Positions 18,212-47,257 of a stretch of 64,000 bases of DNA are shown here, in pieces. Below the pieces are notes generated by a model. That model searched no databases, was not told where the DNA came from, and was given only the letters and a program-made list of their open reading frames with translations. The stretch spans positions 2,976,001 through 3,040,000 of the forward strand of contig NC_015172.1 in assembly GCF_000190635.1 (NCBI RefSeq). Direction: 5' to 3'. Every line of letters begins with the position of its first letter. Position 1 is the first letter of the stretch. Source of the DNA: Syntrophobotulus glycolicus DSM 8271 (GTDB lineage Bacteria > Bacillota > Desulfitobacteriia > Desulfitobacteriales > Syntrophobotulaceae). Position numbers and translations under genes: made by a program.

Positions 18212-18360
18212 AATGGCATCCCTTTCATGAAGCGGCTTGGCAGTTATGACATTGTTCATGTGTTTACACCGTTTCCACAGTGAAGGATTGCCCCTCCCTT
18301 GAAGTATAACAAGGACTCGCCGATGAAGCCGTGACCGCATCGGACGAAAGACTTACAGGG

Positions 18361-41748: not shown

Positions 41749-42261
41749 CTAACGCTGTAAAGCTTGCAGCTTCTCCCGGTCGGTCTCATACCAAAAGGTG
41801 TCTTCTTTTTTCAGCGACGCTCCGACCCGGAGGATTTCGTCCTCGGTGTACTTCTTGAGTATGTCCTTGTTGATGGTCTCGGTAACAACGATGCAGTCGT
41901 TCATCTTGCGGGACTTGAGGCTCTTGATGATTGCCGCGAGCTTTTCCTTCGCCTTCGGGAGTATAACCTTCGTGCTCATGCGGAAGCCCGTCTTTCCGAA
42001 GTTCAGCGTCTTTGTCTTGCCGTCGAGCTCTCCCCGGTGCTCCTCAACAAACGCCTTGATGTCCTTGCCGATAGCGGCGATGCGGTCTTGAATAGGTTTC
42101 GCCTCCTGCGCCGCCGTGAGCTTAATGCCTTGAATCTGCTTGTTCATTTCGCCCTCTATGTCCACGAGGTCAAGCTCAGCCTCGGCGATTTCCTTGAGGG
42201 CGGCGTCGACCTCTTCCCATGTCTTATAGACCGGGGCCTCCTTGATTCTTGTCCTTGCCAT
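41749..42261 (-). CDS. gam: Host-nuclease inhibitor Gam
   Basis: A 170-residue Gam-family protein: an N-terminal coiled coil (KEIAEAELDLVDIEGEMNKQIQGI...AIGKDIKAFVEEH), the beta hairpin KTKTLNFGKTGFRMSTKVILP, and the C-terminal helix. Gam is a Ku-like dimer that coats DNA ends and protects incoming phage DNA from RecBCD/AddAB. It would counter enzymes such as the AddB encoded at the start of this window. The ATG overlaps the previous stop (TAATG). Confidence 0.93.
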   Translation of the reverse strand: MARTRIKEAPVYKTWEEVDAALKEIAEAELDLVDIEGEMNKQIQGIKLTAAQEAKPIQDRIAAIGKDIKAFVEEHRGELDGKTKTLNFGKTGFRMSTKVILPKAKEKLAAIIKSLKSRKMNDCIVVTETINKDILKKYTEDEILRVGASLKKEDTFWYETDREKLQALQR

Positions 42262-42589: not shown

Positions 42590-43564
42590 TTAAAGCATCA
42601 TCATGTTAGATGCTTGATTGATGATGGTCAGCGTGATTCTGGACTCCCCGCGCTCCTTCATGATGCGGAAAACGTTGTTGAGCGTGCGGTCGAGGAGTCG
42701 GAAGCAGCCTGTTTGATGGTTGCACGCCCGGGACTTCAGCTCCGCAAGGGCGTCCTCCTCGACTTCGTAACCTTCGAGGAAGTTATCGACCTCCTTGCCG
42801 GAGAGCCCCTTGAGGCTTGCGTAAAAGTCGACGCGATTCGCGAAGCGGGTGAGGTAGGACTTTATCTGCGCTTCGAGCTTCGGCTCGCCCGCGATGACCA
42901 TGCCGACATCGGACTGGTCGAATATGGCCCGGAGAATTTCCATCTTCTTTTGTGTGTACTTGGAGATGAGCTTGTCCGCCTCGTCGATAATAAGCAGATA
43001 ACCGCGATTGACGTTGAAGAACTCCCTGATTCCGTTAACGCGCTTCCATATCGTCCCGTAGGTGGTAGGGATGCCGAGAGCCCTTTCGATGGACTCCACG
43101 AGGTCTCTTGAGCTCATGGTGTCGTCGCATTCGATATAGGCGACCCGGGGCATCTTGGAGTAATACTTGAGGGCGTGGGTCTTGCCGAAGCCAGACTTTC
43201 CGACCACGATGCCGAGCCCGATGTACTCCTGACAGGAATTGCATACGCCGATGATGTTCTGCGCGTCCCGGCTCTCAAAGAAGCTCTTCCGCTTTGTGAA
43301 ATTGACGACCTTCGCTCTTTCGGCAGTTGCGGCAACGAGCTCCTCACCCGTTACCTCCGCGAGGAAGGCGGTGAGCTTCGCTTCAAGCTCCGTCGCGTCG
43401 CTGTCGTATTTCCCGGAAAGATACCGGGAGACCGTCGTCCGTGAATAGTTGATGGTGCTCGCGAGGTCTGTGATGGTCTTGCCTTCGCGTTTAATGTACT
43501 CGTTGACCTTGTCTGCAAGAGTTTTAATTTCGCCTGTGTAGGCTTTTGCTGCCGTTGCTTCCAT
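42590..43564 (-). CDS. MuB-like transposition target protein (AAA ATPase)
   Basis: A 324-residue protein from the ATG at 43564 (AAAGGGG eight bases ahead). An N-terminal helix-turn-helix (TITDLASTINYSRTTVSRYLSGK) precedes an AAA domain with Walker A VVGKSGFGKTHALK and Walker B YLLIIDEADKL, then a C-terminal helical domain. MuB forms ATP-dependent filaments on DNA, delivers target sites to the transposase and provides target immunity. The gene is 17 bp downstream of the transposase gene, as in Mu. Confidence 0.93.
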   Translation of the reverse strand: MEATAAKAYTGEIKTLADKVNEYIKREGKTITDLASTINYSRTTVSRYLSGKYDSDATELEAKLTAFLAEVTGEELVAATAERAKVVNFTKRKSFFESRDAQNIIGVCNSCQEYIGLGIVVGKSGFGKTHALKYYSKMPRVAYIECDDTMSSRDLVESIERALGIPTTYGTIWKRVNGIREFFNVNRGYLLIIDEADKLISKYTQKKMEILRAIFDQSDVGMVIAGEPKLEAQIKSYLTRFANRVDFYASLKGLSGKEVDNFLEGYEVEEDALAELKSRACNHQTGCFRLLDRTLNNVFRIMKERGESRITLTIINQASNMMML

Positions 43565-43581
43565 TTTGTTATCCCCTTTCA

Positions 43582-45666
43582 TTATCCGAGTGCTCTCAGT
43601 CTCTCAAGGACTGATTGAGCCTTTTGATTGAAGAACTCGTCATCGGAGTCCTTGTGCTGCTTTTGCTTCTTAGAAACACTTCCGGCCTTGAGCTCCTCAC
43701 GGAACTCCTTATCGTCCGGGAGCTGGATAAGGTTGTCGTTCCTCTTAGCCCTGACCGCGAGGTCTAAACCGCCGACCACGGCGGGAGTGCCTTGTCCGTC
43801 CTGCACCCGGAGCTCGTATGGTGTTTGATACCACTCAAGGTCTTCTTTCGTCTCGCGAATCTGCCGCTTTTGCTTCTTGAGGTGCTCTTCGAGCGTGGCC
43901 TGTGACATGCGGGGCGCGAACTGTAGTAGTTCAGCCGAGACAGCCTCGCAAATCTTCTTGCCGTTCTTGTCAAAGACATAGAGCTTGGTGACGTCATCGA
44001 TGTCCCATTTGATGTTGACGGTCTGCCCGATGTAGTGGCAGAGCTCATAATCCGTGTAGAGCGTGCCGAACTTGATAATCCCTTGATTGCGGACGAGGGC
44101 GGTGTCGGCCTTCATTAGGAGCATCGCTGCATATTCCCTCAGAGGAGCTGCTTTGACGTACCGCTCGGCGTTCTCAAAGAGCTCAATCGGAGTGACCCAT
44201 TTCTCGCGAGCATCTTTAAGGCCCCGGTGTTCCCGGACGTGGTACTTCTCGTTCTTCCACTTTGTCCAGAGTGCGTAAAACTCTTCCATTGTGAGGAGCT
44301 CACCGCGCTCAAGCATTCCGGGGATGTCCTTCTTCCGCTTACCCGAAGTTTTCGACCCGGTGAGTGTGCCGACATAGGAGGCCATCCATTTTGTGAACAT
44401 ACTGCACACCGTCCCGAAGAAACGCTCCATTTGCGCCTTGCCCCACGGCTCATAAGGGAGAGACCTTGACCAGTCTTCAATCCCTATGGAGCGGTAGAAG
44501 CCTTTTGTTTCGCTGTCGAAGTCAAGTTCCTGCATCTTGCGCTCCTTGCGGTTTTGCCCTGTGTTGGTCTCCGCTGTGTAGTCCTTGCCGTTGTCAATGT
44601 GCAGGTGTTTCGGCACGCCGCCCGGATTGGAGTAGAGCATCTTGACGAGGCTTTCCTTGAGTATCTGCGAGTTGGCGTCGACACACATCACATCGCCCAT
44701 GATGCAGCGGCTCCGTGTGTCAACCCATGCAACAAGCTTCGGTCGGATTGCCTTGATTTTCCCGTTCGGGCTTGTGTACTGCACCCAGCAGTCGAAGGTG
44801 TGGCCGTCGCCCTGTACGAACTCCATGACCGCGAGGGCCGAAGCGTCACGCTTACCCTTGAGCATCCGGGCATTTTTGAACTCTCTCATTCCGTTGGCGG
44901 CGAGATAGTGGGCGTTGCGTCCCCGGAGCTCGTCCATGATGTACTTGATATACCGGGCCACTGTCTTGATGGAGGGATAGCCTTCCCATCCGCTCTCCTT
45001 GGCGACCTCCTCGAATTTCGTGTAAAGCATCTCAATCGTGCCCTGATTCTGTGCGAAGTCCTTATTAAACCAAATGTTCTCAATAATAGCCTTCTGCTTG
45101 TCCGTCAAGCTTGGAAAGGTGTACGACTGCTTCGGTTTCCGGCATAGGGTGAGCACCTTGAAGAAGTCGAAATTCCGGCCCTCTTCCTTTTCAAGCTTCA
45201 GAGCCCACGCGCTCGCTTCGAGGTATCCCTCGGCGTAGCGGTAGAGCGTCCGCTGACTGACTCCAAGCCTTGCGGCGAACTCCTCGGCGAAAGCCGTGCG
45301 CTCACCTTCTCCATAAGCGACGAACTCCTGAATCTGCTTTGAGAGCTCGACCGCCTCATAATATTCCCGCTTGTGACTCTCTATGTACCAATTGAGGTCG
45401 ATATCGAGATACCACGGGGCCTCTTGTGCCTTCTGTTCGATAACAACATCCCTCCCGTCTACTTTTTTTGCTGCCTTGTGGGCCTTCCTTGCTTTGGTGG
45501 AGAGGGAGGACAGGGCGACCGTTACCCGGTCTTTGCCGCCGTTCTCTCCCGGCTCCGTTAATGTCTTGAACGCTTTTGGATTGCGCTTGATTCTTTGGAC
45601 TAATGTGTTGTACTTGATTCCTTCAAGCTCTGCCGCTGTTTCCAGTGTGACGAATGTTTCCGGCAA
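43582..45666 (-). CDS. MuA-like DDE transposase
   Basis: A 694-residue transposase that starts at the TTG at 45666 behind AAAGGAGGG. N-terminal helix-turn-helix domains for end binding (AELEGIKYNTLVQRIKRNPKAF; LGVSQRTLYRYAEGYLEAS), then the RNase H-like catalytic domain with the DDE residues in EFVQGDGHTFDCWV, LHIDNGKDY and AQMERFFGTVCSMF. The mu-type C-terminal beta-barrel and the helical tail that contacts MuB follow. It performs integration and replicative transposition. A plus-strand promoter reads away from the transposase immediately upstream. Confidence 0.95.
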   Translation of the reverse strand: MPETFVTLETAAELEGIKYNTLVQRIKRNPKAFKTLTEPGENGGKDRVTVALSSLSTKARKAHKAAKKVDGRDVVIEQKAQEAPWYLDIDLNWYIESHKREYYEAVELSKQIQEFVAYGEGERTAFAEEFAARLGVSQRTLYRYAEGYLEASAWALKLEKEEGRNFDFFKVLTLCRKPKQSYTFPSLTDKQKAIIENIWFNKDFAQNQGTIEMLYTKFEEVAKESGWEGYPSIKTVARYIKYIMDELRGRNAHYLAANGMREFKNARMLKGKRDASALAVMEFVQGDGHTFDCWVQYTSPNGKIKAIRPKLVAWVDTRSRCIMGDVMCVDANSQILKESLVKMLYSNPGGVPKHLHIDNGKDYTAETNTGQNRKERKMQELDFDSETKGFYRSIGIEDWSRSLPYEPWGKAQMERFFGTVCSMFTKWMASYVGTLTGSKTSGKRKKDIPGMLERGELLTMEEFYALWTKWKNEKYHVREHRGLKDAREKWVTPIELFENAERYVKAAPLREYAAMLLMKADTALVRNQGIIKFGTLYTDYELCHYIGQTVNIKWDIDDVTKLYVFDKNGKKICEAVSAELLQFAPRMSQATLEEHLKKQKRQIRETKEDLEWYQTPYELRVQDGQGTPAVVGGLDLAVRAKRNDNLIQLPDDKEFREELKAGSVSKKQKQHKDSDDEFFNQKAQSVLERLRALG

Positions 45667-45687
45667 ACCCCTCTCCCTCCTTTCACA

Positions 45688-45716
45688 TTGAACCGTGTCC
45701 GCTGCCGTGGTATAAT
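45688..45716 (+). promoter_or_regulatory. Strong plus-strand sigma-A promoter in the transposase leader
   Basis: TTGAAC (45688-45693), 17-base spacer and consensus TATAAT (45711-45716), with TGG just before the -10 giving an extended form. It points away from the transposase start codon 22 bases behind. There is no start codon with a ribosome site downstream, so the product should be non-coding. Confidence 0.78.
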
Positions 45717-45722
45717 GGCAGG

Positions 45723-45793
45723 AGAAGATTTTTCGTGAGTCTTCTGGTAAGAGAGCCTGTTCGAGTGGTGTCGGTATGGCTCTCTTTCCTTTT
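45723..45793 (+). ncRNA. Candidate antisense RNA over the transposase 5' leader
   Basis: From the promoter at 45711 a transcript of about 70 nt would fold into two hairpins: AGAAGA/TCTTCT (45723-45745) and AAGAGAGCC/GGCTCTCTT (45749-45786) with a 20-base loop, then TCCTTTTG as a terminator tail. It is fully complementary to the leader between the small gene at 45825 and the transposase. The loop is large enough to pair in trans. Function as a transposition control RNA is inferred. Confidence 0.6.
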
Positions 45794-45824
45794 GACCTGA
45801 TTCCTCATGATGCCATCCCCCCGG

Positions 45825-46136
45825 TCACGCACTTTTTGTCACCTTTGCCGACTTGATTTTGCCGATGTGCTCCTCAACCTTCCTGAGCTCCTCATGAAGA
45901 TAGGTGTTTATGTCGCTCAAGGTTTCGATGTTTGCCTGTTTTAAGCTGATGCAATCGAACAAGTCCTCAATATCCTTCTGGATTTCCTTTTGAACCTGCT
46001 CGGCTTGCCGCTTGAGCTCGTTCTGCTTCCTTTCCAGAATGATGAGCTTGGTCTCATCGGTGAGCGTCTTACCGCTCATCCCCATCCCGGCCTTGAGACT
46101 TTCCAGCTCAAAAAGAAATTCATTGACATTCTTCAA
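45825..46136 (-). CDS. Coiled-coil early phage protein
   Basis: A 103-residue protein, almost all coiled coil (IILERKQNELKRQAEQVQKEIQKDIEDL, then EELRKVEEHIGKIKSAKV). AAGGAGGAA precedes the ATG. It lies between the Ner-like regulator and the transposase. No family recognised. Confidence 0.68.
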   Translation of the reverse strand: MKNVNEFLFELESLKAGMGMSGKTLTDETKLIILERKQNELKRQAEQVQKEIQKDIEDLFDCISLKQANIETLSDINTYLHEELRKVEEHIGKIKSAKVTKSA

Positions 46137-46149
46137 AGTTATTCCTCCT

Positions 46150-46368
46150 TCATGCTATTTTTTTAAACGATTCCGGGTCTAAATCAAGCACCCTCGCGAT
46201 ACCTTGGAGGTACTTATCCCCCGACCTGTCTCCGTATAGGATGAGATTGAGGTACTTGTTGCTTGTTCCGACCTCTTGTGCGAGCTGCACCTGTGTCATG
46301 CCTTTTTCTATGAGCGTTTTCTTAACCAACACGCCGAAGGCGGTCAGTTGTCTCTTGTTGCGCTGCAT
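46150..46368 (-). CDS. Helix-turn-helix early regulator (Ner position)
   Basis: A 72-residue XRE-type protein: FGVLVKKTLIEKGMTQVQLAQEVGTSNKYLNLILYGDRSG is the DNA-binding domain, followed by a helix ending in DPESFKKIA. AAGGAGG stands before the ATG at 46368. In Mu, Ner sits at this place and turns down early transcription after infection. Two copies of TTACTTCC (46399 and 46436 area) in the adjacent upstream gap could be its sites. Confidence 0.82.
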   Translation of the reverse strand: MQRNKRQLTAFGVLVKKTLIEKGMTQVQLAQEVGTSNKYLNLILYGDRSGDKYLQGIARVLDLDPESFKKIA

Positions 46369-46498
46369 CAAGCATCCTCCTTCCTGCGCTCTTAGAATTA
46401 CTTCCGTTTCAAAGTTTGTGAAGTGTTTCGAGTAGTTACTTCCACCTTTTGGCTCTATAATGAGATTGCGGCCATATCATAGAGAGGGGGTGGTAATA

Positions 46499-47182: not shown

Positions 47183-47257
47183 TTGATATATTTCTCTATC
47201 AGTCTTATTTTATACAACAACTGAGAGGAAGTCAAGCATAAATCTCTCACTTGTTGT
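47183..47257. promoter_or_regulatory. Face-to-face early and repressor promoters with repressor operators
   Basis: On the minus strand TTGACT (47235-47230), a 17-base spacer and TAAAAT (47212-47207) form the early promoter. On the plus strand TTGATA (47183-47188), 17 bases and TATTTT (47206-47211) drive the repressor. A 15-bp element, ACAACAACTGAGAGG (47214-47228), fills the spacer of the early promoter, and an inverted copy, ACAACAAGTGAGAGA, lies at 47257-47243. Repressor bound to both would shut the early promoter and adjust its own. Confidence 0.72.

Follow-up and report, generated by a model that had tools for sequence, protein, structure and literature searches.

A predicted antisense RNA opposite the leader of a MuA-like transposase gene in Syntrophobotulus glycolicus, and its conservation among related elements

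The window, by which is meant the whole 64,000-nt stretch of Syntrophobotulus glycolicus DSM 8271 analysed here, carries a group of Mu-like phage genes on the minus strand. An HTH gene of the early operon (46150–46371, from gene calls and Pfam) is followed by a ~100-aa gene with no Pfam family (45825–46136), the MuA-like transposase gene A (43582–45666, with a TTG start at 45666–45664; Pfam Mu-transpos_C and DDE_2), a gene for a MuB-like ATPase (42590–43582), and a Gam gene (41749–42261). A candidate early-operon promoter on the same strand (TTGACT-17-TAAAAT, 47207–47235) would read through to A. Between A and the ~100-aa gene lies a gap of 158 nt (45667–45824) to which no gene was assigned, and it is this gap that holds the antisense unit considered here, with A as its presumed target. 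The 3.4-Mb genome containing the window (G000) has four copies of the antisense-unit stretch, with no difference among them in the 261 bases tested, as well as one diverged Mu-like element (L025) whose A is ~50–52% identical and which has an antisense unit of its own. Elsewhere in the window, a minus-strand match to the Rfam RT-9 RNA (RF03080) at 18250–18345 scores 90.5 bits (gathering score 46.1).

The sequence-only reading had proposed a plus-strand promoter 22 bp from the start of A, and this is present at 45688–45716: TTGAAC (45688–45693), a 17-bp spacer, and TATAAT (45711–45716) preceded by TG, with 10 of 12 matches. Taken alone it is unremarkable, since three such promoters were found in 3 kb with 1.9 expected by chance. 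The predicted RNA, counted from the predicted start to the end of a T-rich tract, is ~71 nt long (45723–45793, plus strand). It begins with a hairpin at its predicted 5′ end (hairpin 1, 45723–45745) and finishes with a second that forms the terminator (hairpin 2, stem-loop 45749–45786, T-rich tract to 45793), with a 9-bp stem and a 20-nt loop; the terminator scan omits the latter because of its loop limit of 8. These coordinates agree with the 70-base, two-hairpin product, ending in a terminator with a 20-base loop, that had been read from the sequence. Its supposed lack of a translatable frame also holds up, the sole ATG lying ~15–18 nt from the 3′ end and having, by eye, no Shine-Dalgarno (SD) sequence. 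The RNA is predicted to be far more stable than its own shuffles (z −6.2; none of 100 as stable). We infer that it is transcribed from the predicted promoter. It does not, as had been claimed, cover the transposase leader completely: it occupies 45723–45793 of the 158-nt gap, and ends 41 nt before the SD of A (45676–45682, minus strand). A direct block of the ribosome site of A is thus impossible for the predicted RNA, which must work by way of the leader: a switch of structure, translation of the leader ORF, decay of the RNA, and interference are the candidate routes.

Searches of genome contigs, viral contigs, and whole genomes supplied the relatives of A, two of these searches giving the best 80 of 256 and the best 80 of 229 matches. 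Whole genomes with a match to A numbered one in a set of 61, one in a set of 82, and three in a set of 398, the window's own genome being counted. Of the resulting 207 loci, 192 had a start, and from these came 82 upstream stretches that differed from one another and measured 200 nt or more, copies of the window (L001–L004, L021–L024) having been removed ahead of this count. Upstream of A, 42 of the 82 have a promoter followed by a terminator in antisense orientation and none has one in sense orientation, with 3.2 expected from dinucleotide shuffles; conservation in related prophages had been suggested as a check on the sequence-only reading. Among 2641 ordinary windows from the same loci, such a unit was present in 115 on the strand opposite to A and in 59 on the strand of A itself. 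With a strict geometry the figures were 30 of the 82 upstream stretches, as against six and one of the 2641 ordinary windows on the opposite strand and A's strand, respectively. Two loci of odd geometry (L061, L082) were removed from the 42, leaving 40 for later counts. In these the −10 ends 39–54 nt from the start of A and the terminator stem mostly begins 30–36 nt past the −10. In many loci part of the −35 coincides with the complement of A's SD, and promoter scores may be inflated as a result, but the conservation of the −10 and of the terminator is not explained by this overlap. The promoter-terminator rule missed a unit visible by eye in L160; by eye the unit is absent from L060, although L060 and L065 have closely related A proteins. 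Absence by the rule from 40 of the 82 relatives implies that the unit is nonessential for Mu-like growth. Two individual loci are of interest: L056 has a unit of strict geometry ~600 bp upstream of A, and a relative from Lutispora thermophila (L007:4001–6082) has an A gene with an in-frame stop at codon 85 and retains the antisense unit.

The structure of the RNA appears to be kept while its sequence changes. Most of the 40 antisense RNAs are predicted by folding to form a 5′ hairpin and then a terminator hairpin. In 31 of the 40 the first hairpin has 4 bp or more and begins no later than nt 4, with 18 different arm sequences among them. Overall the unit persists down to ~41% A identity, with the stems rewritten through compensatory change. 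Two MAFFT alignments misplace hairpin 1 and were excluded from pair counts, for which a nine-row alignment (A8) was used alone. In it, 96.5% of cells pair; three cells have two-sided changes and eight one-sided, and all eight of the latter are G-U on the antisense strand. Since they would be A·C on the other strand, the antisense strand is favored. Strand choice through folding energy was dropped: the antisense strand is the more stable in 39 of 40 loci, but this is mostly composition, and the two strands have similar z-scores (−4.34 and −3.85). Visual inspection also picked out apparent YUNR loop motifs.

A covariance model (R1) was built from the nine rows of A8, with the window excluded. 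Its sole match in the window is at 45724–45796 (E 0.003). Across 398 genomes it gave two strong matches, both adjoining A, in the two genomes other than the window's that hold A. At none of the loci of nine weaker genome matches was there an A homologue, and the two that were inspected resemble ordinary terminators. With four matches over the 32 sources given to it, and most distant relatives missed, the model measures the near family only. Rfam 15 had no match at the unit in the window at the gathering score, in 45600–45900 at E values up to 1, or in 15 relatives, and a known RNA family was therefore set aside.

On a tree of 80 A proteins, with the unit in 39 rows, its distribution needs six changes, compared to a mean of 27 when shuffled (0 of 500 shuffles as low). 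The tree is unrooted and came from a quick search, and two loci with a short A (L007, L078) were excluded from it. The unit is found in deep branches and is missing from two clades, one of them that of Faecalibacterium phage FP_Mushu. In the unit-less relatives inspected (L026, L012, L049, and kin) an HTH gene lies directly beside A, in the place that the ~100-aa gene and the unit occupy in others. The simplest reading of this unrooted, quick tree would be an ancestral unit with a few losses.

As is characteristic of cis-encoded antisense RNAs, the unit is equipped with a separate promoter and terminator, both opposite in strand to its target. The window's unit alone could be due to chance, but the comparison across relatives argues for a real and old RNA, and as far as sequence comparison can tell the locus very probably encodes one, a cis-antisense RNA of ~71 nt. 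The earlier suggestion that an antisense RNA aimed at the transposase leader best explains the block would accordingly stand, in that the unit is conserved, tied to A, and marked by compensatory stem changes. Repression of A by this RNA is likely. For how this might come about, the leader of the A mRNA has to be considered.

This leader has a common order: element A with an SD-like sequence, the antisense target (the complement of hairpins 2 and 1), element B, a further ~25–30 nt, and the SD of A. In the window, all on the minus strand, the element A region lies upstream of the antisense target at 45796–45826, and both it and the leader SD are weak; element B, a segment able to form pairs with either element A or the ribosome site of A, is at 45717–45725, overlapping the predicted RNA 5′ end by ~3 nt; and element C, the ribosome-binding region of A, is at 45667–45690. 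Across loci, B is a segment of 9–10 nt, pyrimidine-rich in most, between the antisense −10 and start, and so mostly outside the RNA. The energy of a duplex between B and A's ribosome site peaks at B's offset (−8.79). B pairs better with its own C than with swapped partners (P 0.025; P 0.043 with one row per group), and B and element A covary (own −8.45, swapped −6.56; 0 of 5000 permutations), which holds with one row for each of 26 groups. A possible leader ORF of 41 aa crosses the target in the window (45683–45808), with a weak SD (GGGGGG, 45817–45822). Its SD does not satisfy the strict test, which 23 of 40 relatives pass with leader ORFs open across the target (3.9 expected; 18 of 29, with 2.7 expected, when the SD is held fixed). 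An upstream gene extends through the target in seven further loci (L011, L085, L025, L054, L055, L068, L051). The sequence and frame of the leader ORF are not conserved among relatives, and some leader ORFs stop ahead of B.

A switch between these elements can be proposed. In the free leader mRNA, element A would hold B, which acts as an anti-SD, or ribosomes on the leader ORF would sweep over it, and A's ribosome site would be open. With the antisense RNA bound, the stretch between element A and B would become a stiff duplex, parting the two and halting leader ribosomes, so that both A:B pairing and leader translation would fail. The freed B would then pair with the SD of A, and translation of A would stop. 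Not all of the folding evidence points this way. A shuffled B sequesters A's SD as well as the real one does (0.333 against 0.340 free, P 0.45), so that, as far as this test reaches, the B:C effect is one of composition. When folding is restricted to the sequence from B to the start, 29 of 40 loci have a less free SD than with the full leader, and again a shuffled B behaves likewise. Leader folds constrained by masking the target gave mixed results, masking being a poor model of a stiff duplex. Several relatives (e.g., L025, L054, L055, L051, L085, L072) have little anti-SD. With one folding control failing to support it, repression specifically by way of the A/B/C leader switch has a somewhat less than even chance of being right. 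The fuller reading from which it comes, that the RNA pairs with the A mRNA leader and lowers A synthesis post-transcriptionally, in cis and in trans, through such a switch, is put forward as the probable one.

The leader ORFs suggest another possibility, that the antisense RNA is real but blocks leader-ORF translation to which that of A is coupled, as with tap, without any exchange of A:B for B:C pairing. The excess of leader ORFs with SDs running through the target is what this would predict, as are the seven loci where an upstream gene crosses it. The window's own leader ORF, however, has no good SD, some leader ORFs finish before B is reached, and covariation of A with B would be superfluous for coupling; on balance this explanation seems rather unlikely, if the most serious of the alternatives. 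Cleavage by RNase III or decay is common for cis-antisense RNAs, and the full complementarity over ~71 nt expected of two transcripts from the same locus would suit pairing followed by such a fate for the A mRNA, the leader elements then being of no importance. The conserved position of B and the A:B covariation, both outside the RNA, point instead to a leader switch, and decay as the main route is improbable. The antisense promoter might also act by transcription interference with the early operon, which it faces as a strong-looking promoter, the RNA being a by-product; this is very unlikely, as interference needs neither a terminator conserved within ~71 nt nor compensatory stem changes. Reading the block as a gene for a small protein on the minus strand, or its promoter and hairpins as products of chance, is scarcely credible despite the 41-aa frame in the window, a similar frame in the near relative L007, and a promoter that alone is within chance, because the unit is far above chance in both the shuffled and the ordinary-window comparisons, and frame and peptide differ among relatives while the stems are kept, by which the protein gene was ruled out.

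If an antisense RNA does act on the A leader, it may have effects beyond its own copy. Mu-type phages replicate by transposition, so the supply of transposase sets the number of copies made, and the unit probably brakes the phage's copying of itself into the host genome. The same RNA would come from all four identical prophages, which should share one pool of it, and from this multicopy inhibition and an RNA layer of immunity are expected. The diverged copy in the same genome carries its own RNA, which does not match that of the four; the window RNA is predicted to bind its own target at −141 kcal/mol and that of L025 at −31. More broadly, and tentatively, there may be a large lineage of MuA-type phages, mostly of Firmicutes by their named hosts, with an old antisense controller between early operon and transposase: a three-element translational switch with an RNA trigger, giving copy control and immunity in trans, with divergence leading to compatibility groups. 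The known controls of Mu are proteins, the repressor and Ner. If the proposal is true, an RNA-based control of replicative transposition would be added to these, kept across A proteins only ~41% identical, and plasmid-style copy-number logic would enter phage biology. It makes testable both the mutual silencing of identical prophages in one genome and compatibility groups defined by divergence.

Several known systems can be compared. In IS10, RNA-OUT pairs over the ribosome site of the transposase mRNA. The resemblance is that of an antisense RNA, here a predicted one, limiting a transposase; the transposase family is different, and the overlap with the ribosome site is lacking, the RNA stopping 41 nt short of the SD. 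In pT181 and pIP501, antisense binding frees a leader segment that forms a repressive stem, a transcription terminator. A freed segment forming a repressive stem is likewise proposed here, but its partner would be A's SD, and promoter-plus-terminator units on the sense strand were found in none of the 82 stretches. In the literature searched, mostly titles and the beginnings of abstracts with few subscription journals, no published antisense RNA to a Mu-type transposase was found, nor is one mentioned in the available portions of two transposable-phage studies (PMC12135933, PMC9936078). For the insertion element ISPpu9 of Pseudomonas putida, the accessible text describes a small RNA, Asr9, upstream of the transposase gene, with mRNA leader structure involved (PMC8450116); both features recall the present case, the two being set side by side by description. 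CopA of plasmid R1, from a partial text, prevents translation of tap, a short leader ORF upstream of repA (PMC12779154), and is similar as an antisense RNA whose target is a leader containing a short ORF. It differs in that the leader ORF here is unconserved in sequence and frame and weak in the window, and in that the target is a transposase. A close description, from an excerpt of its source, is that of RNAI of pSK41, a staphylococcal RepA_N plasmid: an antisense RNA of ~83 nt with two stem-loops, whose leader target lies far upstream of the ribosome site and which is proposed to induce a leader stem that hides this site (PMC5703833). Both the two stem-loops and the leader target away from the ribosome site are found here. 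The likeness is one of description, not sequence, the pSK41 gene being a plasmid rep gene and this one a phage transposase, and a leader ORF and element A are present here that are not part of the pSK41 description so far as that excerpt goes. The best reading is that the RNA would repress A translation by leader-structure switching, as proposed for pSK41 RNAI.
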